From: Bryopsis sp. KO-2023
Lineage: Eukaryota > Chlorophyta > Ulvophyceae > Bryopsidales > Bryopsidaceae
Assembly: GCA_030272585.1 (NCBI GenBank)
Contig: BSYQ01000002.1
Coordinates: forward strand, 2,790,001-2,854,000
Reading direction: 5' to 3'
Length of the DNA: 64,000 bases
Shown here one piece after another: positions 5,832-31,933 of this stretch (its first letter is position 1; the number at the start of each line of letters is the position of its first letter). The position numbers were made by a program, and so were the translations under genes. The notes under the pieces were generated by a model. That model had not been told where the DNA came from. It was given only the letters and a program-made list of their open reading frames with translations, and did no database searches.

Positions 5832-6140
5832 GAGTTTCAAAAGAAAGGCACCTGTGTTGGTAGCAAAAAAACCCTTGCTTTTCTACCTTTTTTGCGTGTT
5901 GGAGAAAAGCGCTTGAGAACGACCCTGGTGGACGGTGCAAACGCCTGTGCCTCTGCTCGAGGTTCCTGTGCCGAGGACGTCTATGGGGTTCTTCAAGGAG
6001 GGTCTCTTTCAATCGATCGGTCAATCGACAGGTATCAGTGGTTGAAACTCTCAACTGGTCACGTGATACCGCCGTCACCGGGTTCCAGTACTGACTAGTC
6101 ACTTCGGCGTGGTGGTACTGGTGGAGTTTTTTCTTGGAAC

Positions 6141-6226
6141 AACGTTCCACTCTGTGTACCTCGTTATCAGGCACGCAGAGTGTGCTGGAGCTTCACAGAA
6201 CTGACATTTGGTTTTGTCGCCAGCAC
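6141..6226 (+). promoter_or_regulatory. Conserved upstream block of SRP RNA copy 1
   Basis: A block from ACGTTCCAC to TTTTGTCGCCAGC, conserved before all three SRP RNA copies at a fixed distance (here -142 to -57). Plant 7SL genes use external elements, so this is the likely promoter. The assignment comes from conservation between copies, not from a known motif match. Confidence 0.6.
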
Positions 6227-6282
6227 TCTAGTTCCACCTGAAAGTCTGGAAATGACGTGAGTTAAAAGTCTACCAATAGAAT

Positions 6283-6575
6283 GTCGAGCAGGGTAGCGCC
6301 TGCTTATCACCCAAGCGGGGACTGTTGAGCGTGGATTGAAGGTGTCTATCCTTGGTCCAGTGCTGAGCGTTGATGGTGCATCCTTTCCAAGGGGTAGGTC
6401 TGTTCTAGCACCTCCTCTGAAGAGCGGGCGGTCGAACGGTTGAAGTGTCAGGCAAAGCGCCAGGCGGGGAACCGAGCAGCGATCACTGGCCGCCTGCCTC
6501 GGTGGGAGGACAATGCACCAGAGCAAAGCACAGGATTCACCATTGGCAGACAGGCAGAGAGACCGCTCAATTTTT
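6283..6575 (+). ncRNA. 7SL/SRP RNA, copy 1
   Basis: This is the RNA scaffold of the signal recognition particle. The 5' end GTCGAGCAGGGTAGCG followed by TGCTTATCACCC and AAGCGGGG matches the Alu-domain order of plant SRP RNA (GCCGAGC..GTAGCG..TGTAACCC..AGCGGGGG). Near the middle, GGGGAACCGAGCAG matches the conserved helix 8 loop (GGAA followed by GAGCAG), flanked by GCCAG/CTGGC pairing. The gene ends GACCGCTCAA in a T-run, a Pol III terminator. Length is ~293 nt, typical for eukaryotes. The two other copies in the window differ by scattered substitutions. Compared with copies 2 and 3 this one is the more divergent; whether it is functional is unknown. Confidence 0.82.
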
Positions 6576-7711: not shown

Positions 7712-8872
7712 ATCCATGTGTGTTAAAAATGACAGCTGCTGTTTATTTGACGTTCTTTTTATCAAATTTAGAGAAGATTTTTTCTCACATGGTATGTTGG
7801 CATCGTCCTACAGGTGTACTAATGACTCGGCCCCTTGATGATTCTGCAAGATTTGCTGAGGCATTTTTTTTGGAAGAGAGGGGTGTTCATTTCATGTGAC
7901 TTTATAGAGTTTTGTGTTGGGAGATATCCGATGGGTTTCGTCCTGTTTGTGTTAGGCAAGATATCAAATATTGATTTTCAGTGGCCTCCCTTTGCCAAGC
8001 AATGATTCCACAGGACAGCAGTGGGTCTGCTTGGCGATCATTTTCTTAAGATTGAACTTTGTGAACGATAAGACATCGCATGTAACCAATTGATTAATTT
8101 CAGTGTTTTTTCGCCATGGCTGTCAGTTTTTTATAACATTGGTTGTATCAATTGATAGGAGAAGTATCAAGGAAAAAAAAAGCGTCAGGATCAATGTACA
8201 AAAAGTCTCATTGCTGTGTTCCCAAAGGAAAGCTTTACAAGCGATTCTAGAGAAAAAAGCTTGTAAAGCGATTCTATCTACATATTCTAAGTCAATTGTA
8301 ACTGCCCTGGACCATACTCAAAGGAACCGATTTCTTGCAGATTGATAACAGTTCATTATAAAATTGAATGTGAGCGCTGTGCACCAACGATGGACTCGGC
8401 TGTACCTCGTTTCAGCACTTCCTGGTCCGGGGGCAACTTTTTTAGAGCGACCCCCACACCCAACTTGTATTTTTGAACGTTTCAGCCAACTCTGTATCAC
8501 TCTTTTCTCCTTCCCCCCCCCCCTCTTCAAAAAGGAGCTCCATCGGAATTAGTAATATTTACGATCAGTCACACTGACGGGCAGCCTCGTTTTCGCTGCG
8601 CCGCTGCAAAGGGTTGCAAACGTCGTCACAGGAAACGCATCGTTTTTCGCAGATAAATACCAGAGTTTTTTCAACCGGGAAAACCAAAACGCCCTGCTTT
8701 CTTTTCTTTCCGCAAATAGTGCCGTGAAGTGCGTTTTCTGGTGCCCGCGTTCGTAACAGGCCCGCTCGATTCTCCCGCAATTTTTTCCTTTGTGGAAAAC
8801 ACCAAAAGCTCGAGGCTTAGGCGAGGTACATCGTGGGGGAAAAGGGGTTCTCTTTGTGCCGCGTTTGAACGA
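7712..8872. other. Intergenic, with homology to the region upstream of the second WD40 gene
   Basis: No gene seen at 7712-8560. A small inverted repeat (GCTTTACAAGC / GCTTGTAAAGC) lies at about 8230-8270. From about 8680 the sequence matches 30680-30883 upstream of the paralogous WD40 gene, so the duplicated unit includes the 5' leader and probably the promoter. Confidence 0.5.
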
Positions 8873-9922
8873 ATGAGCGACTACGTGAGTGTTGAGTGGG
8901 AGCTCCCCAGTGGCGTGGTTGGTCGAATTTTCGAGGGGCTTTGCCCAAGGGCTTTGGCCAGATGCTCCAGTGTCGCTAAGGCTTGGAACGAGGTCACCAA
9001 GGAAGGCCATTTCGTTAAAAAACTCGACCTCGAGAGATCCTGGCGATGTGGCACCGTTGTGCCGAAATGTATCGAGTTCCCCAAGAATCGGTGGGCTGGT
9101 AGTTGTGATATGCGGGGCGATATGATTGCGATGGTTCAGGGAAAAAAGATTCTTTCTGTGAACGCTGAAAACGGCGACGTCTTGACTAGGACCGAAGCCA
9201 ACACGAGGATTTCGGTTGTGTGTTTGATCAATGGAACACTGCTGTGCAAGAATGACAATCGAATGGTGATGGTCCTGGAAATGCCTGAATTGAGACAGAT
9301 CGCGGCCATTAGCCTTCGTTTCACGGTTGATGTGATCGTGGATGTCAGGGACCACGTGGTCTTTGGCGGTAGGTTTGGGTGCCTGGATTTGTGGAGCAAG
9401 ATGGGCTGGACTCGTGTGAAGGTTTTGAATGAGGGTGGCCCGGAGCAAGAGGACATTCTGTGTGCGGCATTCGCCAAGGGAGTGGGTTTGTTGATATGTG
9501 GATTGAGGGTTGGGCATCTAGAAGTGTGGAGCTTGGCCTCCTGCACCCGCGTGGCGGCGCTGGAGGGACACTCTCGTCCTGTCTCGCGTGTTGATGCCAA
9601 TGACAATATGGTCGTTAGTAGCTCTATGGATTTTACCGTCCGGATATGGGACTTGGAGACCTTCGAGTCTGTGCGAGTTATCGACAATCACCCAAGGTGG
9701 TTCTTTTTTGCGCTAAACGAAAGCAAGTTTGCGCACTGTACGGTAACCTCGATGGAAGTGGTGGTTTCTGGTGTTGTCGAGGAGGATTGTTTCCTTCGCA
9801 CGTTTCATGTAGGGGGTAAACTCATAGGTCTTTTCTTGACGGAGGGTAAGCGGACGGCTGTGCGGCGTGACGGGAAAATCTTGGTGTGGGACTTCTGGGC
9901 CCATTCTTGCCTTGAAGATTAA
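8873..9922 (+). CDS. F-box-like/WD40 protein, paralogue A
   Basis: An intronless 349-residue frame. ATG 8873 was chosen because the paralogue at 30884 starts at the same place and the upstream frame diverges. Residues ~8-50 look like an F-box (LPSGVVGRIFEGL...RALARCSSVAKAWNEV), which in this class binds Skp1 in SCF ubiquitin ligases. The rest is compatible with degenerate WD40 blades; the clearest are LEGHSRPVSRVDAND...VRIWDLE and, at the end, DGKILVWDF. The blades would bind the substrate. Paralogue B has the same length and is identical over most of the protein. A third, broken copy lies at 33.8-33.9 kb. The stop is TAA, and the broken copy has TGA at the matching codon, so the C-terminus is reliable. 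The target is unknown. Confidence 0.85.
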   Translation: MSDYVSVEWELPSGVVGRIFEGLCPRALARCSSVAKAWNEVTKEGHFVKKLDLERSWRCGTVVPKCIEFPKNRWAGSCDMRGDMIAMVQGKKILSVNAENGDVLTRTEANTRISVVCLINGTLLCKNDNRMVMVLEMPELRQIAAISLRFTVDVIVDVRDHVVFGGRFGCLDLWSKMGWTRVKVLNEGGPEQEDILCAAFAKGVGLLICGLRVGHLEVWSLASCTRVAALEGHSRPVSRVDANDNMVVSSSMDFTVRIWDLETFESVRVIDNHPRWFFFALNESKFAHCTVTSMEVVVSGVVEEDCFLRTFHVGGKLIGLFLTEGKRTAVRRDGKILVWDFWAHSCLED

Positions 9923-13021: not shown

Positions 13022-13316
13022 AAAAAACTTGAGCGGTCCCTCTGATTGTCTACCATTGGTGAATCCTGTGCTTTGCTCTGGTGCATTGTCCTCCCACCGA
13101 GGTAGGGGGCCAGTGATCGCTGCTCGGTTCCCCGCCTGGCGCTTTGCCTGACACTTCACCCATTCCGTCACCGACTCTTCAGAGAAGGTACCAGAACAGA
13201 CCCACCCCTTGGAAAGGATGCACCATCAACGCTCAGCACCGGACCAAGGACAGACACCTTCGATCCACGCTCAACAGTCCCCGCTTGGGTGATAAACAGG
13301 CGCTACCCTGCTCGAC
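13022..13316 (-). ncRNA. 7SL/SRP RNA, copy 2
   Basis: Minus-strand copy starting GTCGAGCAGGGTAGCG at 13316 and ending GACCGCTCAAG before a run of seven T. It has the same Alu-domain start and helix 8 loop (GGGGAACCGAGCAG) as copies 1 and 3, and is closest to copy 3. It is head-to-head with copy 3, the two starts 359 bp apart, so the pair was made by an inverted duplication or is kept alike by gene conversion. Confidence 0.83.
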
Positions 13317-13370
13317 GTTCTATTGTAGCGGTTGGAGGCAGGTCATTTTGTGCTCTGGGTTGGATTTGGA

Positions 13371-13458
13371 GCGCTGGCGACAAAACCAAATGTCAGTTCT
13401 GCGAAGCTCCAGCTCACTCTGCGTGCCTGATAACGAGGTGCACAGGGTGGAGCGGGGT
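13371..13458 (-). promoter_or_regulatory. Conserved upstream block of SRP RNA copy 2
   Basis: The same block as before copies 1 and 3, at -55 to -142 of copy 2. A weaker A/T-rich element (ACAAAATG) lies about 35 bp before the start. Confidence 0.6.
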
Positions 13459-13534
13459 GCTTTCCTTTCATTAAGGGCACCAGTTCCCCCAGCGTGGTTA
13501 TCATACACATCTGGGTGATTTTTCTATTGTGACA

Positions 13535-13620
13535 ACGTTCCACCCTGTGCACCTCGTTCTCCACCACGCAGAGTGTGCTGGAGGTTTGCAGAACTGACAT
13601 TTGGTTTTGTCGCCAGCGCC
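13535..13620 (+). promoter_or_regulatory. Conserved upstream block of SRP RNA copy 3
   Basis: Block ACGTTCCACC to TTTTGTCGCCAGCGC at -140 to -55 of copy 3. An ACATAAAAATG element, TATA-like, lies about 37 bp before the start, where copy 2 has ACAAAATG. Confidence 0.6.
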
Positions 13621-13674
13621 CAAAATCCAACCGAGAACATAAAAATGGCATGCCTTCAACGGATACAACAAAAC

Positions 13675-13968
13675 GTCGAGCAGGGTAGCGCCTGTTTATC
13701 ACCCAAGCGGGGACTGTTGAGCGTGGATCGAAGGTGTCTGTCCTTGGTCCGGTGCTGAGCGTTGATGGTGCATCCTTTCCAAGGGGTGGGTCTGTTCTGG
13801 TACCTTCTCTGAAGAGTCGGTGACGGAATGGGTGAAGGGTCAGGCAAAGCGCCAGGCGGGGAACCGAGCAGCGATCACTGGCCCCCTACCTCGGTGGGAG
13901 GACAATGCACCAGAGCAAAGCACAGGATTCACCAATGGTAGACAATCAGAGGGACCGCTCAATTTTTT
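13675..13968 (+). ncRNA. 7SL/SRP RNA, copy 3
   Basis: GTCGAGCAGGGTAGCGCCTG start, TTATCACCCAAGCGGGG Alu loop segment, GTCAGGC...GGGGAACCGAGCAG helix 8, and GGGACCGCTCAA then six T. Length ~294 nt. Between this copy's conserved promoter block and copy 2's is only about 75 bp, with no gene. Confidence 0.84.
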
Positions 13969-19263: not shown

Positions 19264-20344
19264 CCCCCACTGTACACCCTCAATCGTATTTAGTGTGGTG
19301 CTTTTAATAGTGTTACCCCAGTAATAGTGTGGGCCACACTAATTAACGAAAAACCAAAACGCTCTGGCAAAAGAATAGTGTGGTCTACACTATTCAGCGA
19401 AAACTGTGGATTTACATAAATTAGTGTGGGCTACACTATTCATCGAAAACTGTGGATTTACATAAATGTGGCGCTCGAAGTGGCTGAAGTATAAGTCATC
19501 TATATTCGGTGAATCTCATTCAGTCGATTCGGAATACTCCTAGCCATCGGGTAATATCCACAGCAACCCACAATGGCTAAGACCAGCCATTTCACTTCAA
19601 CTTAGTGGTCTCTAGTCTTACCATCGACAATCTTGCAGCCGAAAACTAGGCTTATCAACCAAAATGAACGAGACACAGACTTGAGACTGAGACAGAAAGA
19701 AGAGCATAACACATAACACAATATTATAGCACAGCATAATAACGAACACAACACCACCAAACCAAAACGTCGACCTCGTTGGGAGTCGAACCCAGCGTCA
19801 GAACCACAAAGGTCTCATAAGAACCGCTAAAAAACAAGTGTGGAATGAGTTTGGGGTGTCTGCAAGTGTTTCCAATTGTCGACAGGTGGGTCTGCAAGTG
19901 ATTCCACTTATCGACAAGTGGGTCTGCAAGTGGTGCACTTGCCGAGAAGTGAAAGACAAGTGAAAGTTTTTGCGATATTGAGTCCTCACAAAAAATTCTA
20001 TCAGTGTTCGCAATCACCACCAGCGCCTTTCCACCACCACCCCTTAACCGCCACTGCCAAGGATACGTGTGAGATCCCTAAACCTAAGCTGCTCTTTTGT
20101 GGTGGGGAGTGGAGATGTGTTTGTGGCTGTAAGCAGCGTTGATGTGTTCACGCGGGCCGCGTGATGCGGCCTTCGAACCGTGCTGTGAACGTTTGTGGTG
20201 GTCCAAGTCTCACGAAATCCAGTGGTGGATATCAGGCTCTATTAGCGGCTACCGCTGGTTCCAGTGGTGTTCGCGTGTTCTGAAAATTCTTTTCACGCTC
20301 TTAAAAATTATTCCGAACGCACTGTTGCACCCAGTGGGGCCACT

Positions 20345-21655
20345 ATGAAAACTCCTTCTTCCTCACCTCTTATTGCAGCATGGCAACGGGGCGGCATAGA
20401 CGAAGGGGGGGGGGGCAGACGGGGGGGAGCAGGTGGTTCGAGCAGAGAAATGGGAAGAGAAGGTCCAAGCAGATGTGCCCCGAGTGAAGATGAGGGAGAA
20501 GGTGGTGAAAACAGAGTACAGGCGGTATCTAGCGACGACAAAACAGGTCACGACAAGAAACGACAACGGCAGCATGTCTCGACACTGATGAGGAGAAAAT
20601 ATATTATTCTTTGGCAACAAGAAGAAGTCAAACGTTCTGGAGAAAGACACATTGCTTCAAAGACTGTTAAGAAATTTCCTACAGATTTTTCTGGAAATGA
20701 AAAAGCCAACCTTGCGAAGGCATCGCGATGGTGGAAGGGGGCGGACGCATTTCTGGCTCAAGTCGAAGATACCAACCAAAGCACCAGCAGAATTCAACGC
20801 ACAGGTGAGACCGGGCGAAAAGTGTTGAGGGCAAAGGCGATGTCGGGAAGGGGAAAAAAAAGGGAGCCTTGGGTTTTGTGGTTGCATAAGGAAATTCTGG
20901 AAGAATTTGACAGAATGCGGAAAGCGGGTGTAAAAATTACACCAGCAATGCTTGGGAATATCGGAAAAGTCATATTAGAAAATTCTGATGATGTTTTCAA
21001 GGCAGGCTCCCTCTCGGCCAAAGGAGTACCCCTGATTGAGTTGATAACTCCACGTTGGGTGCAAGTGTTTCAGGAAGCAAACAACGTAGTAAGTCGAAAA
21101 CAGAGTGGGAAATTGCAGGTCAGTGAAAAAAAACAAGCAGAAATCGAAAAAGAAGTTGCTTTTCACTTGGGTGAGTTAGCACGTCAGTTTGAAGCAGGGG
21201 AGTTGGATGAGGATATGGTGGAGAATATGGATGAGACCCACAAGGTAATAAACATGGACAACGGTAAAACTCTGGGATTTTTTGGTGATGAGAATGTGAA
21301 GTATGCTGATGTAGTTTCTGGTGGAGAGGGGATGACAATGGTTGTCCGAATTACGGGAGGGAGAGATGCAAAGGTTGCTGCTCCCATGTTAATTTTTCAG
21401 AACAAGGGAAGAAGTTATCCGATCAGGGGGGTTCCTGATAATATTTCTGGAGTTTGCTACCGCAGCGGTCCAAAAGGTTGGATGGACAAAACAGTTTTTT
21501 TGGAATGGATAAGGGAAAAGAGAGCCATCAGTGCGGATATTTATCAGAGAAAAAGAGTGTTGTTTGTGGATAATTGTGGGGGGCACAAGCCTTCTCTTGA
21601 AACTTTTCAGGCCCTTCGAGACATTAATACGGAGCTCAGAATGTTTCCCAAGAAT
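20345..21655 (+). pseudogene. Pogo-like DDE transposase, N-terminal part
   Basis: 437 codons from ATG 20345 up to the CACTA insertion. A Gly/Arg-rich N-terminus is followed by a basic helix-rich DNA-binding region (from about residue 90). The DDE_1 catalytic core begins at ENMDETHK (first Asp). The second catalytic Asp is in LFVDNCGGHK near the end. The third catalytic position is missing here: the reading frame is cut after MFPKN, and its continuation (ATDLVQPAD) lies inverted at 25086. DDE_1 proteins cut and join DNA at transposon ends. There are no internal stops in this part, so the break by CACTA insertion is recent relative to decay. Confidence 0.82.
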
Positions 21656-24542
21656 CACTAGTAAAAACAGGGCCGATTTACCACTTTTTTTTACCAAAAA
21701 CTGGTAAAAAATCACGCTAATTTCAAGAAACTGAGAGAAAAAGTGGTAAAATAGAGGCTTTCACCTCAAACTGGTAAAATTTACCACAATCTGGTAAAAA
21801 TTTACCATATTCACGAAAAATCGCCGCAACATGGTAATAATTTACAAGATTCACAAGATTTTACCAAAATATGGAGAAAAAAAAATCCAGAATGCGCTGC
21901 AATAAGTGCGATCAGAGGTTATCATACACGCGACAAGGTTATCGACCAAGGCGATCTGGTTGTACTTCTTGCGAGGCACGAAACCCACGAGGGCAAACAA
22001 GCTACGAAGCAAACCAAGGTCCCATCACAGTTTTCCAGTTTTTTTTTCCAGGAAAGGCGCAAGGCCTATCGCGGTTGGTTGGGGCGGTGTGCAGACATCT
22101 CTCAAACATCGAGATTCTTTTTGTGGTCGATGATCACGTCAAAGGCGACGGGATAACAGCAAGTCTCGTGACAGTGGTGGCTCAAGTCTCGTGACAGTGA
22201 TGGCTGGGGTTGTACCTCTTGCGTGGTCACGAAACCCACGAGGGCAAACAAGCAGCGAAGCAAACCATCACAGTTTCCCAGGAAAGGCGCGAGGAGAACC
22301 TTCCCCGGTTGGTTGGAGCGGTCTGCAGACATCTACTGAACAGCGCCAGTAAGAACAAGCCAAAAGCGACGAGACAGTAAGAGGTCTCGTCAGAGGGGAG
22401 GACATAAGACTACGAGGTCATGTGCTTCTATTGCCAGTGGGTAAGTTTTAACAGCAGCTCCCTGAAAACAATCCATTTGGCCATTTTTTTTTTTCTTCTT
22501 GGGATATACCGGTTAGAATCATATTGGAGTTCAATTGCACATCGCAAAGTGAAACCAATGGTCTTTCTTTTAATCGATAAAATTCCTTTGTTTTTGTTCA
22601 TACAGTTGTACTTTCTCACGAGAATCAATCTCACACGACCAGGCCATACCCTGCACACCAGAAATCCCCAGCAAGATCACTAAGGTTATTTCTCCAGTTT
22701 GGGTTGTTTCTGATTTGTAGTTTTCTTGATATACAGACAACAAGATGAGGCAGTGCTTCTGATGAATTGACAGAGAAAGAAGGTACTTTCAACTGAGAGT
22801 CGTATTTGAATTGTGATTATGCAACTCCTGGTTATAATCTTGGGGTCCAAACAGGGAAGAAATGGGCAACCCTAATCCTACCGTGCAGAATTTTGGAAGG
22901 GTTCTGCAAACGACGATCCCCACGGTGTGCTTCGGCTCTTGCCAGCCTGGCACAACATGCACACCATCATAAGAATCTATTCAATGGGAACAGGATGCCC
23001 ATTGACTTTCAAACAAGCGGAGTGGACTTAGGTTTTATTGTTTTTATAGCTTTTCGCAGAATCGGGGAGTTGCAGTTGGATCACTACATGGCAGCGATCA
23101 CTCGGCAATTCAGAGCTGGCCGTTGCGAAAGAAAGAAGGAAACAGTTGGGCAGGTGGAAGAGGATGATCGATCAAACAAAACAAGCTGCCGCTGATGAAA
23201 AAAAGTGGGTGATAAAAAATATTAACACATCTCTGTGCGTGTGTTCTTTCAATTTCCTCTCAATTCACATGTTGAGGAAAATCCACAAAACCACGACAAT
23301 ATCGCTTTTGAAGGTGTAACAAGATAACATATAACATAGAACAAAATTCCCTCCTCCCTCTCAGGTGCAGTCTGATGATTGTAGTGTTTGCTAATTTTTA
23401 TCATTTCAATGCTGCTGCTGGTGATGGCAATCCTTATCTTCTGTGGAAAGGATCGTTTCCTCCACCAACAATCGGAAAAAAGAGCAGAGACCTGTTCTTC
23501 TTCGAGAACAGGTTTGTGGGAGGAGCTCTGGGTATTGCAGTTCTGGGGTTCAGACATGAGGAATGCAGGTGCCTGAAAAAGAAACCAGGAATGCAGGTGC
23601 CTGCTTATCACCCACTTTTTTTTTTCTCTGTTTGAAACTCTGCCCCTGGCAAACAGAAAGAAGCAAAGGAGGGAGGGAACTTTTGCGGGATACACAGATT
23701 GGTCACATTTTTCCATTCTTTCTTTATTTTCTTTTACTTTGTTTTATGGAGAGATGGTGAATATCCAATCAATGGGACAGTTTGGATCTCGGATCTCACA
23801 TTCTGAACAGGGACACAGTGCCAACGATACCATCAAGGGAATATATTATATATATATATACGAGAAGAACTTGTTTCTTGGATGAGCAAAGTGGTTGCAG
23901 GAGATGGGTGGTCTCCCCCAGTTCTAGTTTCAGATCGGAGTAGTGATAGGAAGAAGAGTTCCAGGGACAGGAATATTAGATCTGAAAATGATGGGAAACA
24001 CGATTTCAGGGCAACGGGGGGTTGTTGAATGTGGGGGCAGTGGGGGGTTGGATGCGTGGTTTGGCTCTGTAAAATTATTACTCAATGAACTTGTTTCCCG
24101 TTTCGATAGTTTTGCCTGTTACCAATTACCAAATTTTCACAATTACCAGTTTTCCTGAAACTACCAGATTTTCAAAGTGCATCACTTTTCCAATTTACCA
24201 GATCGTTCTCACAATTACCAGTTTTTCAAAAGTCGTCACTTTTCGAATTTACCAGATTACGACCACGATTACCAGTTTTTAAAATTACCAGATTCTTGAA
24301 ATTACCAGATTTTCAAAAGTCGTCACTTTTCGAATTTACCAGTTTACGACCACGATTACCAGTTTTTTCACCTCCCCAGAAAACTGGTAAATTCTAATAA
24401 TGTGGTAAAAAAAACTGGTAATCGTGGTCGTAATCTGGTAAATTGAAAAACTGGTAAACTCAAAAAAAACACGAAACGACTGTTGGAACTTCGTGCAAAA
24501 ACTGGTAAATAAACTGGTAAATCGACCCTGTTTTTACTAGTG
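21656..24542 (+). mobile_element. CACTA (En/Spm-type) element, left copy
   Basis: 2,887 bp with ends CACTAGTAAAAACAGGG and its complement, the CACTA signature. Both ends carry dense arrays of TTACCAG/CTGGTAA (roughly 200 bp on the left, 400 bp on the right), like the subterminal transposase-binding repeats of CACTA elements. The inside has a ~240-bp tandem duplication (21960-22330) and no recognisable transposase, so it is non-autonomous. The flanks are AAT on the left and CTT on the right, which do not match; see the inversion finding. It appears identical to the copy at 25087, in opposite orientation. Confidence 0.85.
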
Positions 24543-25086
24543 CTTGCCCCAGAAGCCCCCCCTGCACACCCTGCCCCAGAAGCCCCCCCTGCACACCCTG
24601 ACCCCCTTGACCCAGAAGCCCACCCTGCACACCTTGCTCACCCAGATGCCCACCCTGCCCACCTTGCGCACCCAGCTCATCTTGATCCCCAGGTCCAGAA
24701 CTTGGACATCGTTCGGGACAAGGGTCAGTCCCCCCAACTGGCTCACCATTGAAGTGGTGTTCATACTTGCTTATGATTTTCTGTAAGTTGGGGAACAACT
24801 GGCTCTTGTGCTACACGTTGTTGAGATCCTTTGCAAGTCCGCACCTGATCATTGCCTTCCTCGCATAGCTCAGCCCATTTTCATCCCTCAGTTTATTAAA
24901 TTCTTTCACGCACTCGGAAGCAAGAGTTAAGAAATACGGCTTTCCTGGATTCTTGAGCTTGCCACTTTCCTGCCAATCACCATTCATGATCATTTCCTTT
25001 TTTTTTTCATCCCATTTCTTTCGCCATATCGTTTTCAGCTTTTGAATCACAAAAGAATCGGCTGGTTGTACCAAATCTGTCGCATT
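24543..25086 (-). pseudogene. Inverted middle part of the pogo-like transposase
   Basis: On the minus strand from 25086 the frame reads NATDLVQPADSFVIQKLK, which continues exactly where the plus-strand part stops (MFPKN). It supplies the third catalytic Asp (QPAD, the QPLDQ position of pogo enzymes). The frame goes on through a charged region, crosses one TAG at 24813-24811, and continues in the same frame into Gly/Gln repeats (VQGGLLGQG type), ending at the next CACTA element. The flanks are CTT and ATT, complements of the AAG and AAT target duplications, so this segment has been turned around. Confidence 0.82.
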
Positions 25087-27973
25087 CACTAGTAAAAACA
25101 GGGTCGATTTACCAGTTTATTTACCAGTTTTTGCACGAAGTTCCAACAGTCGTTTCGTGTTTTTTTTGAGTTTACCAGTTTTTCAATTTACCAGATTACG
25201 ACCACGATTACCAGTTTTTTTTACCACATTATTAGAATTTACCAGTTTTCTGGGGAGGTGAAAAAACTGGTAATCGTGGTCGTAAACTGGTAAATTCGAA
25301 AAGTGACGACTTTTGAAAATCTGGTAATTTCAAGAATCTGGTAATTTTAAAAACTGGTAATCGTGGTCGTAATCTGGTAAATTCGAAAAGTGACGACTTT
25401 TGAAAAACTGGTAATTGTGAGAACGATCTGGTAAATTGGAAAAGTGATGCACTTTGAAAATCTGGTAGTTTCAGGAAAACTGGTAATTGTGAAAATTTGG
25501 TAATTGGTAACAGGCAAAACTATCGAAACGGGAAACAAGTTCATTGAGTAATAATTTTACAGAGCCAAACCACGCATCCAACCCCCCACTGCCCCCACAT
25601 TCAACAACCCCCCGTTGCCCTGAAATCGTGTTTCCCATCATTTTCAGATCTAATATTCCTGTCCCTGGAACTCTTCTTCCTATCACTACTCCGATCTGAA
25701 ACTAGAACTGGGGGAGACCACCCATCTCCTGCAACCACTTTGCTCATCCAAGAAACAAGTTCTTCTCGTATATATATATATAATATATTCCCTTGATGGT
25801 ATCGTTGGCACTGTGTCCCTGTTCAGAATGTGAGATCCGAGATCCAAACTGTCCCATTGATTGGATATTCACCATCTCTCCATAAAACAAAGTAAAAGAA
25901 AATAAAGAAAGAATGGAAAAATGTGACCAATCTGTGTATCCCGCAAAAGTTCCCTCCCTCCTTTGCTTCTTTCTGTTTGCCAGGGGCAGAGTTTCAAACA
26001 GAGAAAAAAAAAAGTGGGTGATAAGCAGGCACCTGCATTCCTGGTTTCTTTTTCAGGCACCTGCATTCCTCATGTCTGAACCCCAGAACTGCAATACCCA
26101 GAGCTCCTCCCACAAACCTGTTCTCGAAGAAGAACAGGTCTCTGCTCTTTTTTCCGATTGTTGGTGGAGGAAACGATCCTTTCCACAGAAGATAAGGATT
26201 GCCATCACCAGCAGCAGCATTGAAATGATAAAAATTAGCAAACACTACAATCATCAGACTGCACCTGAGAGGGAGGAGGGAATTTTGTTCTATGTTATAT
26301 GTTATCTTGTTACACCTTCAAAAGCGATATTGTCGTGGTTTTGTGGATTTTCCTCAACATGTGAATTGAGAGGAAATTGAAAGAACACACGCACAGAGAT
26401 GTGTTAATATTTTTTATCACCCACTTTTTTTCATCAGCGGCAGCTTGTTTTGTTTGATCGATCATCCTCTTCCACCTGCCCAACTGTTTCCTTCTTTCTT
26501 TCGCAACGGCCAGCTCTGAATTGCCGAGTGATCGCTGCCATGTAGTGATCCAACTGCAACTCCCCGATTCTGCGAAAAGCTATAAAAACAATAAAACCTA
26601 AGTCCACTCCGCTTGTTTGAAAGTCAATGGGCATCCTGTTCCCATTGAATAGATTCTTATGATGGTGTGCATGTTGTGCCAGGCTGGCAAGAGCCGAAGC
26701 ACACCGTGGGGATCGTCGTTTGCAGAACCCTTCCAAAATTCTGCACGGTAGGATTAGGGTTGCCCATTTCTTCCCTGTTTGGACCCCAAGATTATAACCA
26801 GGAGTTGCATAATCACAATTCAAATACGACTCTCAGTTGAAAGTACCTTCTTTCTCTGTCAATTCATCAGAAGCACTGCCTCATCTTGTTGTCTGTATAT
26901 CAAGAAAACTACAAATCAGAAACAACCCAAACTGGAGAAATAACCTTAGTGATCTTGCTGGGGATTTCTGGTGTGCAGGGTATGGCCTGGTCGTGTGAGA
27001 TTGATTCTCGTGAGAAAGTACAACTGTATGAACAAAAACAAAGGAATTTTATCGATTAAAAGAAAGACCATTGGTTTCACTTTGCGATGTGCAATTGAAC
27101 TCCAATATGATTCTAACCGGTATATCCCAAGAAGAAAAAAAAAAATGGCCAAATGGATTGTTTTCAGGGAGCTGCTGTTAAAACTTACCCACTGGCAATA
27201 GAAGCACATGACCTCGTAGTCTTATGTCCTCCCCTCTGACGAGACCTCTTACTGTCTCGTCGCTTTTGGCTTGTTCTTACTGGCGCTGTTCAGTAGATGT
27301 CTGCAGACCGCTCCAACCAACCGGGGAAGGTTCTCCTCGCGCCTTTCCTGGGAAACTGTGATGGTTTGCTTCGCTGCTTGTTTGCCCTCGTGGGTTTCGT
27401 GACCACGCAAGAGGTACAACCCCAGCCATCACTGTCACGAGACTTGAGCCACCACTGTCACGAGACTTGCTGTTATCCCGTCGCCTTTGACGTGATCATC
27501 GACCACAAAAAGAATCTCGATGTTTGAGAGATGTCTGCACACCGCCCCAACCAACCGCGATAGGCCTTGCGCCTTTCCTGGAAAAAAAAACTGGAAAACT
27601 GTGATGGGACCTTGGTTTGCTTCGTAGCTTGTTTGCCCTCGTGGGTTTCGTGCCTCGCAAGAAGTACAACCAGATCGCCTTGGTCGATAACCTTGTCGCG
27701 TGTATGATAACCTCTGATCGCACTTATTGCAGCGCATTCTGGATTTTTTTTTCTCCATATTTTGGTAAAATCTTGTGAATCTTGTAAATTATTACCATGT
27801 TGCGGCGATTTTTCGTGAATATGGTAAATTTTTACCAGATTGTGGTAAATTTTACCAGTTTGAGGTGAAAGCCTCTATTTTACCACTTTTTCTCTCAGTT
27901 TCTTGAAATTAGCGTGATTTTTTACCAGTTTTTGGTAAAAAAAAGTGGTAAATCGGCCCTGTTTTTACTAGTG
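25087..27973 (-). mobile_element. CACTA (En/Spm-type) element, right copy, inverted
   Basis: 2,887 bp, same length and, as far as I can read, same sequence as the copy at 21656 but in reverse orientation. The same CACTA/TAGTG ends and CTGGTAA arrays are present. The flanks are ATT (left) and AAG (right). Together the two copies form a ~2.9-kb inverted repeat with a 544-bp spacer. Confidence 0.85.
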
Positions 27974-27976
27974 AAG

Positions 27977-28617
27977 GTGTGCAGGGGGGGCTTCTGGGGC
28001 AAGGTGTACAGGGGGGGCTTCTGGGTCAAGGGGGTCAGGGTGTGCAGGGTGGGCTTCTGGGGCACGGTGTGCAGGGTGGGCTTCTGGGGCAAGGTGTGCA
28101 GGGGGGGCTTCTGGGTCAAGGGGGTCAGGGTGTGCAGGGTGGGCTTCTGGGGCAAGGTGTGCAGGGTGGGCTTCTGGGGCAAGGTGTGCAGGGGGGGCTT
28201 CTGGGTCAAGGGGGTCAGGGTGTGCAGGGTGGGCTTCTGGGGCAAGGTGTGCAGGGTGGGCTTCTGGGGCAAGGTGTGCAGGGGGGGCTTCTGGGTCAAG
28301 GGGGTCAGGGTGTGCAGGGTGGGCTTCTGGGGCAGGGTGTGCAGGGTTGCTTGGGTGGGTCTGGGGATCAGGGTGAGTTTATTGTGCAGGGTGTGCAGGG
28401 TGGCTTGGGTGGGTCTGGGGATCAGGGTGAGTTTATTGTGCAGGGTGTGCAGGGTGACTTGGGTGGGTCTGGGGATCAGGGTGAGTTTATTGTGCAGGGT
28501 GTGCAGGGTGGCTTGGGTGGGTCTGGGGATCCGGATCAGGGTGAGCTTGGTGTGCAGGGTGGGCTGGGGGAGATGGAATCTTGGGACGACTTTTTGCTAA
28601 GGATGAACGAAGCTTAA
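27977..28617 (+). pseudogene. Pogo-like transposase, C-terminal part: Gly/Gln repeat tail
   Basis: In the restored order this follows the middle part after the AAG target site. It encodes a long array of VQGGLLGQG-type 9-residue units, then LGGSGDQGEFIVQG units, and ends in a non-repetitive acidic tail (GEMESWDDFLLRMNEA, TAA). The DNA is a minisatellite (GTGCAGGGTGGGCTTCTGGG units). The array is open over more than 200 codons in two frames. A collagen-like low-complexity tail is not a usual part of pogo transposases. Its role is unknown. Confidence 0.7.
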
Positions 28618-28974
28618 ATGAATTTTTGTGAGTTGCTCATCCCTGTAAAGAACAGCCACGAAGTGTATCGCGTTTCTCTCCAGACTGAGTGCGACCCACC
28701 ATCACTCTTTTGAACGACTCCTGTGATTACCGATGACTCACCACAGGTACAATGACGACAAGCACGGAACAATGTTTCAAATTTGAACAATTCCCTCTCT
28801 CAAAAAGGTAACACTAATTTTGAATCCAAGTTTTAGTGCAGCCTACACTATACGTGTGCAAACATAAATTAGTGTTACCCGGAGAATAGCGCAGGCCACA
28901 CTATTCTCCGTTTTCTGAAATTTCGGCCGTCTTCGGAAATAGTGTAGGCTACACTAAATACGATTGAGGGTGTA

Positions 28975-29165
28975 CCATTTTGTGCGCACGTTCCGATCGG
29001 GTTCCGATTCGGAGCTTCCGGAACCTGTCAAAATGTACGGAAATTCCTCGCTTTGGTCCCCCCCCTCCATTTTCCGCTTGTCGTTGCCCTCTGCTTAGAG
29101 CGCTGAAGTCCATGCGGATCGAATTCGGCTGAGGCGCCGCTGTGGCGCTACTATCTCGAGTCGGT
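28975..29165 (+). repeat. Displaced 3' flank of the WCWEVGGC gene copy 2
   Basis: Matches 16655-16850 downstream of copy 1 (for example CGATCGGGTTCCGATTCGGA-like and GCGGATCGAATTCGGCTGAG). It begins exactly at the transposon edge, so it was continuous with 19274 before insertion. Confidence 0.8.
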
Positions 29166-30883
29166 GCAAGGAAACGACTTCAACGAAGTTTCCTTAGACC
29201 ATTACTAAGCTTTTTGCTCACGTGAGTGCGCTCGTCTCGTATCTCCAAGTGGAACTCTGTTCCACCCGTCCGCAGTACGACAATATCATCTGTGCGCGAC
29301 GGTTTGACGATTTGTCACGGTGTTTCGGGATGAATACTGGCGCAAGACTGAGGAGAGGTGCCTTCAAAACAGGGCGAGGATCTTTCGTATCACGGTATTT
29401 TTAACGGAACCACCACTGGGCGCCAGAAAAAAAAATCCAGAAATTGTTTTGGAGCTCCTTTGTACAGGTTTCACCTCCCAAAACAATGATTGTCTGCAGA
29501 CAGCAGGTTTATTTCAGCATAGGTTTTTTCCATTTCCGTCAACTTTTTTTTTCTCGCTCTTTCCGCACTTATGGAGAGGCAGGCCCTTGTGTTAAGGTAT
29601 TTCTTTCTTGAACCTGTTTTTATTTCTGGGAATGTTCCCTCCCCTGATTTAATCCTTTTTTTTCTCACTCTTCTGGAGCCCCTTTTGATGGTGGTGTTTT
29701 TTTTTTTTGCTACATGCTGACCTCTTCCATGTTGAAATGGTTATCAAAAGGTTTGATCTCCTTTCACGAAACTTAGATTCTGTATGGTTTTTCACACCCC
29801 CACCCATAATTGTCAAAGTAATACATGCACAGAAGTCCGGCACTTTTTATAGGCACCCGCACAAGGCTAAGAAAACAAAAAACAAAAAAACATGGGGATG
29901 GCCCCTTTTTGTTAACATCACTGTGATATTTGCATGGTTGATTCAGTCAGGGTGTTACAATATGAAATAGTAGGGTTGTCTTACATAATTTTCTCCTCTG
30001 TCGAATTCACATGCATCCATTCTTTTCAAGAGCTTCCCACCATGAATTGCAAAACAGGTCAACCACAAGCATGGTTGGGGGGCTGCCTCGCTCATTTTTT
30101 TTTTCGCCATTGGGTGGGTAGTTCCGTAGATGGATTTATTTTACTTAAACTCTGGCCAAGGCTCAGTCCAGGTGATGGCAGGATGTTCAACTCAATGTTG
30201 AGTCACGACCAAATAAACATGCATGCACGGCTTGACAGCATTCGCGTAAGCTGCCCGACACAGCAAAGCCACAGAGCGGCAAGCAAAAGAGGCCGCCTCG
30301 GAAAAATCCGCGAGGCATCGGGCAACCGCATCCTTCCGAAAGTTTTTGAAAAAGAGTAAACGACCCCATCGACCGGCTTTGGCGCGAAATCTGCTGCTGC
30401 CAGCAGCCTGCTGGTCCATTTTCCCAGGTGGCGCACGTCGAACCGAGGGTAAGCGATGGCATAACGAACGCAGCGAGGGACCCACCGCTTCCATTCTTCC
30501 TTCGTGCGTTTGTTTGCTCGACCGGTCCAGTTCAGGCGCAAGCAAAAAACCCTGTTAACGTTTTGCAGACAAAGGTTCCCTTGCCAGTTTTCCAAGTGAC
30601 TATCGTTAGTATTTGATACCCCCCCCCATGACTTCAACACTGTGAATTCAACAAGGACATCACTATATTCACTGTTTTTTCATCCTGGAAAACCAAAAAA
30701 CCCTGCTTTCTTTTATTTTCGCAAATAGTGCCGTGGAGTGTGTTTTCTGGTGCTCGCATCCGTAACAGGCCCGTTCGATTCTCCCGCATTTTTTTTTTCT
30801 TCGCTGAAACCACCGAAACCACGAGGCCTAGGCGAGATACAACTTGGGTACAAAGGGGTTTTCTTTGTGCCGCGTTTGAACGA
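29166..30883. other. Intergenic, no gene seen until WD40 leader
   Basis: T-rich sequence without recognisable coding features from 29.2 to 30.6 kb. From about 30680 it matches the 5' leader of WD40 paralogue A. Confidence 0.4.
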
Positions 30884-31933
30884 ATGAGCGATTACGTGAG
30901 TGTTGAGTGGGAGCTCCCTAGTGGCGTGGTTGGTCGAGTCTTCGAGGGGCTTTGCCCGAGGGCTTTGGCCAGGTGCTCCTGTGTCGCTAAGGCTTGGAAC
31001 GAAGTCACCAAGGAAGGCCCTTTCGCTAAGAAAATCGGCCTCGAGAGATCCTGGCGATGTGGCACCGTTGTGCCGAAATGTATCGAGCTCCTCAAGAATC
31101 GGTGGATCGAAAGTTACGCTATGCGGGGCGAGATGATTGCGATAGTTGGGGAAGAAAAGATTTTTTCTGTGAACGCTGAGAAAGGCGACGTCTTGACTAG
31201 GGACCGAGCCAACATGGGGAGTTCGGCTGTGTGTTTGATCAATGGAATGTTCCTGTGCGAGAGTGACACGCGAATGGTGGCGGTCCTGGAAATGCCTGAA
31301 TTGAGACAGATCGCGGCCATTAGCCTTCGTTTCGAGGTTCATGCGATCGTGGATGTCGGAGACCACGTGGCCTTTGGTGGTACGTTTGGGTGCCTGGATT
31401 TGTGGAGCAAGATGGGCTGGACTCGTGTGAAGGTTTTGAATGAGGGTGGCCCGGTGCAAGAGGACATTTTATGTGCCGCATTTGCCAAGGGAGTGGGTTT
31501 GTTGATATGTGGATTGAGGGTTGGGCATCTGGAAGTGTGGAGCTTGGCCTCCTGCACCCGCGTGGTGGCACTCGAGGGACACTCTCGTCCTATCTTGCGT
31601 GTTGATGCCAATGACAAGATGTTTGTTAGTGGCTCTGTGGACGATACCATCCGGATATGGGATTTGGAGACCTTCGAGTCTGTGCGAGTTGTGGACAATA
31701 ACCCAAGGTGGTTTCTTGTAGCGCTCAACGAAAGCAAGTTTGCGCAGGGTACGAGAAACTCGATGGAAGTGGTGGTTTCCGGTCTTGTCGAGGAGGATCG
31801 TTTCCTTCGCACGTTTCATGTAGGGGGTAAACTCATAGGTCTTTTCTTGACGGAGGGCAGGCTGACTGTTGTGCGGTGCGACGGGAAAATCCTGGTGTGG
31901 GACTTCTGTGCCCACTCTTGCCTTGAAGACTAA
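30884..31933 (+). CDS. F-box-like/WD40 protein, paralogue B
   Basis: A 349-residue intronless frame from ATG 30884, the same length as paralogue A and aligned without gaps. The F-box-like N-terminus (LPSGVVGRVFEGLCPRALAR) and the WD40 blades (LEGHSRPILRVDANDKM..., IRIWDLE, DGKILVWDF) are kept. Differences cluster in surface-like stretches: the region after KCIEL, the segment with MGSSAVCLINGMF, and the blade with VSGSVDDT. Both leader and 3' flank are also homologous to those of copy A, so a unit of roughly 1.5 kb or more was duplicated. Likely a substrate receptor of a ubiquitin ligase; the substrate is unknown. Confidence 0.85.
   Translation: MSDYVSVEWELPSGVVGRVFEGLCPRALARCSCVAKAWNEVTKEGPFAKKIGLERSWRCGTVVPKCIELLKNRWIESYAMRGEMIAIVGEEKIFSVNAEKGDVLTRDRANMGSSAVCLINGMFLCESDTRMVAVLEMPELRQIAAISLRFEVHAIVDVGDHVAFGGTFGCLDLWSKMGWTRVKVLNEGGPVQEDILCAAFAKGVGLLICGLRVGHLEVWSLASCTRVVALEGHSRPILRVDANDKMFVSGSVDDTIRIWDLETFESVRVVDNNPRWFLVALNESKFAQGTRNSMEVVVSGLVEEDRFLRTFHVGGKLIGLFLTEGRLTVVRCDGKILVWDFCAHSCLED

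Follow-up and report, generated by a model that had tools for sequence, protein, structure and literature searches.

Two identical CACTA-type elements in opposite orientation bound a 544-bp inversion within a pogo-type transposon of Bryopsis sp. KO-2023

Results

Organization of the locus

The window analysed here is a stretch of 64,000 nucleotides from the Bryopsis sp. KO-2023 genome (assembly GCA_030272585.1, contig BSYQ01000002.1, positions 2,790,001 to 2,854,000; contig C2 below). It contains a pogo-type DNA transposon that is interrupted by two CACTA-type elements, which lie in opposite orientation on either side of a short spacer (Table 1). The geometry of the pair was obtained by self-comparison of the region, and it agreed to the base with the coordinates, lengths and flanking triplets that a first-pass annotation had given for both copies. 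The pair is the sole 100% inverted repeat in the window's inverted-repeat list.

Table 1. Features of the interrupted transposon, in window coordinates
Feature	Position	Strand	Remarks
Host pogo-type DNA transposon, interrupted	19275..28972	+	Ends set by comparison with the copies on C1 and C5
5′ part of host transposase frame	20264..21661	+	Stops 6 bases into the left CACTA element at site A
AAT, outer half of site-A duplication	21653-21655	.	Left flank of left CACTA element
Left CACTA-type element	21656-24542	+	2,887 bp, CACTAGTAAAAAC...GTTTTTACTAGTG; without recognised transposase
Inverted spacer, 544 bp	24543-25086	-	Middle of host transposase frame, on the strand opposite to the rest of the frame
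CTT, reverse complement of site-B duplication AAG	24543-24545	.	Right flank of left CACTA element
ATT, reverse complement of site-A duplication AAT	25084-25086	.	Left flank of right CACTA element
Right CACTA-type element	25087-27973	-	Exact reverse complement of left element
AAG, outer half of site-B duplication	27974-27976	.	Within 27-bp minisatellite; right flank of right CACTA element
3′ part of host transposase frame, GVQGGLLGQ repeat tail	27974..28617	+	Frame continuous in C1 and C5

The terminal inverted repeat (TIR) of the host transposon is CACCCTCAATCGTATTTAGTGT, and TA duplications are present at positions 19273-19274 and 28973-28974. Two further host copies, on contigs C1 and C5, likewise possess the TIRs with TA adjoining each end, and the intact copy on C1 matches the Pfam family DDE_1 (PF03184) with an E value of 1.4e-14. 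With a TA duplication, TIRs and a DDE_1 transposase all present, the host is a pogo-type (Tc1/mariner) transposon. The GVQGGLLGQ-type tail of its transposase derives from a 27-bp minisatellite (window 27974-28617; L041 3889-6453; L040 3696-6251), the length of which varies between host copies (854 vs 851 amino acids) and which contains insertion site B. The sequence at and just beyond the right end of the host (window 28971-29530) recurs on C2 from about 2.25 to 3.64 Mb, and is probably part of the unit of an amplified gene family.

Elsewhere in the window, F-box/WD40 genes were located at 8729-9922 and 30728-31933. This family has at least 108 matches in the genome, including 98 on C2 and 10 on C12, C3, C4 and C6, a lower bound obtained with 104 of 358 candidates scored; its expansion is largely confined to one chromosome. 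The genome also yields 107 matches to the light-harvesting family PF00504, as befits a photosynthetic eukaryote. The window also holds an inverted repeat of 433 bp with 95% identity and an 81-bp gap (13022-13968), and a related copy lies at 6120-6575.

Empty insertion sites reveal an inverted spacer

The spacer and the left flank were used as queries against the alga's own genome (91.1 Mb in 28 contigs), and full-length matches were found on C5 and C1 besides the window. Among the best candidates scored, these three loci account for all full-length matches of the spacer, and none of them is a further inserted locus with the spacer turned the other way. In C5 and C1, the spacer adjoins the left flank with a 3-bp overlap, and its orientation relative to that flank is opposite to that in the window. 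Site A in both copies reads ...CCCAAGAAT and runs directly into the spacer end (GCGACAG...) with a single AAT, while site B reads ...GGGGCAAG and runs directly into the right flank (GTGTGC...) with a single AAG. Comparison of the window junctions with these empty sites revealed that 3 bp were gained at each site, that nothing was lost at the junctions and that the spacer was turned. The probability that two swapped triplet pairs match fortuitously is about 1/4096 under uniform base composition, and a chance match is ruled out by the exact agreement with the two empty sites.

The host frame is unbroken in both un-inserted copies, encoding 854 amino acids in C1 and 851 in C5, and MFPKN is followed there by ATDLVQPAD, so that the continuous pogo-type frame which the first-pass annotation had reconstructed across the insertions indeed exists. 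Relative to C1 and C5, the window copy has differences at 2 of 2,384 left-flank bases and at 1 of 544 spacer bases. A partial flank match to a host relative at C4:3020053-3020262 (98% over 210 bases) ends short of the insertion sites. Since the empty copies on C1 and C5 carry the other order together with an open frame, the order in the window is derived; the converse, that it is ancestral, was rejected on the same grounds. Host copies free of CACTA elements were checked for the window's order; the two that were found in full both show the un-inverted one. These results confirm the spacer inversion with 3-bp duplications that had been proposed from the window itself.

Characterization of the CACTA family

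The inserted element has the CACTA terminus CACTAGTAAAAACAGGG at both ends and TTACCAGT/ACTGGTAA-type short subterminal repeats close to both ends. A 3-bp duplication accompanies nine of nine other two-ended copies, a 128-bp relative and the empty sites A and B. Three open reading frames of 107-155 amino acids in the element, read unspliced, gave no Pfam match, including to an EnSpm transposase, at an E value of 0.001, and the element appears, as far as can be seen from its sequence, to be a non-autonomous copy. Transposase_21 matches occur elsewhere in the genome (C12:548569-549374) and represent a candidate mobiliser of the CACTA elements.

The comparison drew on nine other elements with both ends, of which six are full-length copies (2,811-2,886 bp) and three are divergent relatives. 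Target duplications were evaluated for those nine element loci, among 20 stretches, for which the BLAST table lists both ends, and for the 128-bp relative (L037), the remaining element loci of these stretches being partial; matching 3-bp duplications were found in 10 of 10 copies evaluated. A search with a TIR pattern returned 66 matches (34 forward and 32 reverse), compared with 2 and 3 for the reversed control pattern, and took in both the window's family and a related family with the TIR CACTAGTAAAAAAACGG. Ten end pairs of the related family were fetched, and all nine evaluable elements have matching duplications, the tenth being an element that a separate inversion of 1.9 kb has split. The ends of this tenth pair (C2:3058118/3061597) were considered as a second swapped pair and rejected, as they belong to that one related element. 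In the split element (L065, C2:3054501-3061900), positions 2537-2542 of the element form a 6-bp overlap, and the inversion looks more like staggered-break end joining than transposition.

No second inverted pair of the same kind was found within the window or among the TIR matches examined, namely those other than C6:1711812, C7:5031780, C9:931576, C12:1445377, the distant C9:44471/56476 ends and unpaired ends. The pair at C4:725728/829158 lies 103 kb apart, differs by 10 mismatches and 2 indels and has normal duplications. A pair of the related family on C14 is in direct orientation, with right ends 95% alike over 120 bases and normal duplications at both members.

The two window copies share private variants

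The two window copies show 0 differences over 2,887 bp, as the first-pass annotation had noticed, whereas the six other full-length copies differ from one another by 8-30 events in their 15 pairs. The nearest of these copies are 6 mismatches and 2 indels away from the window pair. Moreover, four variants are common to the window pair and absent from the six other full-length copies, at element positions 1567, 1729, 2192-2193 (a TA unit) and 2875. The TA variant is a microsatellite unit and hence weak evidence of kinship. In view of the 0 differences and the shared private variants, the window copies are each other's closest relatives among the copies compared. Unless conversion overwrote one of them, they are sisters, which means that one gave rise to the other or that both stem from a single immediate parent. 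A common donor with the same variants, missed or lost, may exist. In the truncated copy at C8:2130738-2131684, for which the comparison covered the terminal repeat, this repeat has the common form.

The private base at position 2875 (window 24530 and 25099) makes the right TIR equal to the left TIR over 17 bp. In all six of the other full-length copies, the right TIR carries an A here. The match perhaps arose by a small TIR-to-TIR conversion.

Discussion

Proposed origin of the inversion

Four histories were reconstructed symbolically, namely two insertions followed by a crossover, hybrid-end transposition, replicative intramolecular transposition and hybrid-end transposition from the other site. 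All four yield the observed arrangement, so the arrangement alone cannot choose between mechanisms. The relationship of the copies carries more information: chimeric copies are expected under ectopic recombination and identical copies under hybrid-element insertion (PMC2775673). At the present locus, the copies are opposite and have exchanged duplications, as in inversions of the Galileo type, but in place of chimerism there are 0 differences and private variants in common. Identical copies with exchanged duplications and no gain or loss of flank are what hybrid-element insertion would leave. The identity thus speaks against two independent insertions and agrees with one element as the source of both copies; it is also compatible with insertion of a daughter copy nearby and a subsequent flip, or with later conversion, which could mask chimerism.

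We therefore favour, at about an even chance, a one-step hybrid-element transposition between sister chromatids that made both copies and the inversion together, a weight that reflects judgement rather than a computed posterior. One CACTA-type element would have entered the recently arrived pogo-type transposon and, after DNA replication, would have undergone an aberrant local transposition with transposase supplied in trans. The right end on one sister chromatid would be joined with the left end on the other, and this hybrid end pair would insert 544 bp away in one chromatid. The unused ends would still hold the elements to the donor site, and the segment between donor and target would consequently be reversed between two identical mirror copies. 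The old duplication would be split between the two copies, and the new one would be made and split likewise. If the first insertion was at site A, the left copy would keep its left junction AAT and acquire a new one on the right, and for the right copy the junction kept would be the right one, ATT beside the spacer, with AAG as the new left junction; a first insertion at site B, with the roles mirrored, is just as possible. The other chromatid would retain an excision footprint. The use of one end from each of two element copies fits a transposase acting on sister chromatids. The inversion, the two target sites, the swapped duplications, and the identity and shared private variants of the copies are observed, and we infer the sister-chromatid ends, the transposase from elsewhere and the single step.

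Alternative routes to the same arrangement

An ordinary local transposition would give the same arrangement and identical copies if a daughter from the sister chromatid had landed 544 bp away, facing the opposite way, and a crossover between the two inverted copies had later turned the spacer. Crossovers of this sort readily use inverted repeats that are long, perfect and separated by a short spacer. This route needs two events, however, and the copies examined include no further pair that is both close together and near-identical, the C4 and C14 pairs having normal duplications; we consider it possible but rather unlikely. Given the ordinary duplications of the other copies examined, these offer no further hint that elements often hop locally or that segments often flip. 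Nevertheless, inverted repeats that are perfect over 2.9 kb and lie 544 bp apart are expected to flip now and then, so the orientation seen today may differ from that of the original product. The first-pass annotation had proposed two independent insertions, with the segment between them later flipped by recombination, and had regarded the identity of the copies as the mark of recent exchange. The inversion, the identity and the recency of the event are all borne out, and a crossover is one possible route, with a one-step hybrid-end event giving an identical arrangement; exchange between independent insertions, in contrast, predicts copies other than those observed. Two independent arrivals without conversion are disfavoured by the identity and by the four private variants in common, given that other pairs differ by 8-30 events.

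Arrivals from different donors could still have been homogenised by gene conversion before a recombinational flip, and the private base that equalises the TIRs over 17 bp would fit some conversion in this lineage. The swapped duplications and inverted copies match the expectation of such a history, and the Galileo inversion 2z3 of Drosophila buzzatii arose in this way (PMC2775673). Yet it predicts chimeric copies where identical ones with shared private variants are seen, and it requires either additional conversion spanning the full 2.9 kb or a common donor that escaped notice; the random chance that any two of about 10 copies fall within 544 bp in 91 Mb is about 5e-4. We regard this history as improbable. 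Slightly more improbable still is an assembly error in which the spacer between two plain opposite insertions was placed the wrong way round. The misplaced spacer would give the same string by construction, but 28 contigs for 91 Mb suggest that the reads exceeded the 6.3 kb over which the locus extends, and the sister relationship of the copies would be left unexplained. The least probable of these routes is a replicative, nick-only (Shapiro-type) intramolecular transposition as in Tn3 and Mu, whereby the element would copy itself and invert the segment in a single step. It would account for both the arrangement and the identical copies, but nothing at the locus demands replication by the transposase, and we know of no attribution of a Mu/Tn3-like replicative mode to the CACTA superfamily. 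CACTA elements are described as cut-and-paste transposons (PMC4158355), which counts against this route.

Comparison with known systems

A close parallel is provided by the Galileo inversions of D. buzzatii, in which opposite DNA-transposon copies lie at the inversion ends with exchanged duplications, and single target copies are present in un-inverted chromosomes (PMC2775673). The Galileo copies are chimeric, which their authors took as proof of ectopic recombination, whereas those described here are identical; the present case further differs in its 544-bp segment, its CACTA-type element and its photosynthetic eukaryote host. Hybrid-element insertion of the Drosophila P element is an experimental observation (Gray et al. 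1996, cited in PMC3744419 and PMC8225341), while the reaction proposed here is deduced from one natural locus and involves another superfamily. In alternative transposition of maize Ac/Ds, either sister-chromatid or reversed-ends, the ends of two element copies are likewise used, and inversions with elements at the breakpoints result (PMC8225341, PMC3744419). In the reversed-ends reaction the fragment between two pre-existing elements is lost, whereas nothing is lost in the window. A head-to-head VANDAL21 pair in Arabidopsis similarly combines close opposite DNA transposons with inversions and other rearrangements, for which alternative transposition was proposed (PMC12312487). That element is of the MuDR type and the events are somatic, and, according to the authors, the reads left some events and duplications unresolved. 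A literature search of limited depth brought to notice no CACTA inversion with exchanged duplications, and we make no claim of its absence from print.

Significance

The event is of a known kind and is unusually cleanly documented. It constitutes a natural case that is clean to the base pair, and both breakpoints are exactly known because one genome holds the inverted product together with the two empty sites. Swapped duplications between identical copies do not automatically signify recombination between two old insertions. If the hybrid-end reading is true, the locus would represent an intact product, formed in nature, of a reaction that has come to light mainly through the genetics of P and Ac/Ds, and would extend that reaction to another superfamily and lineage.
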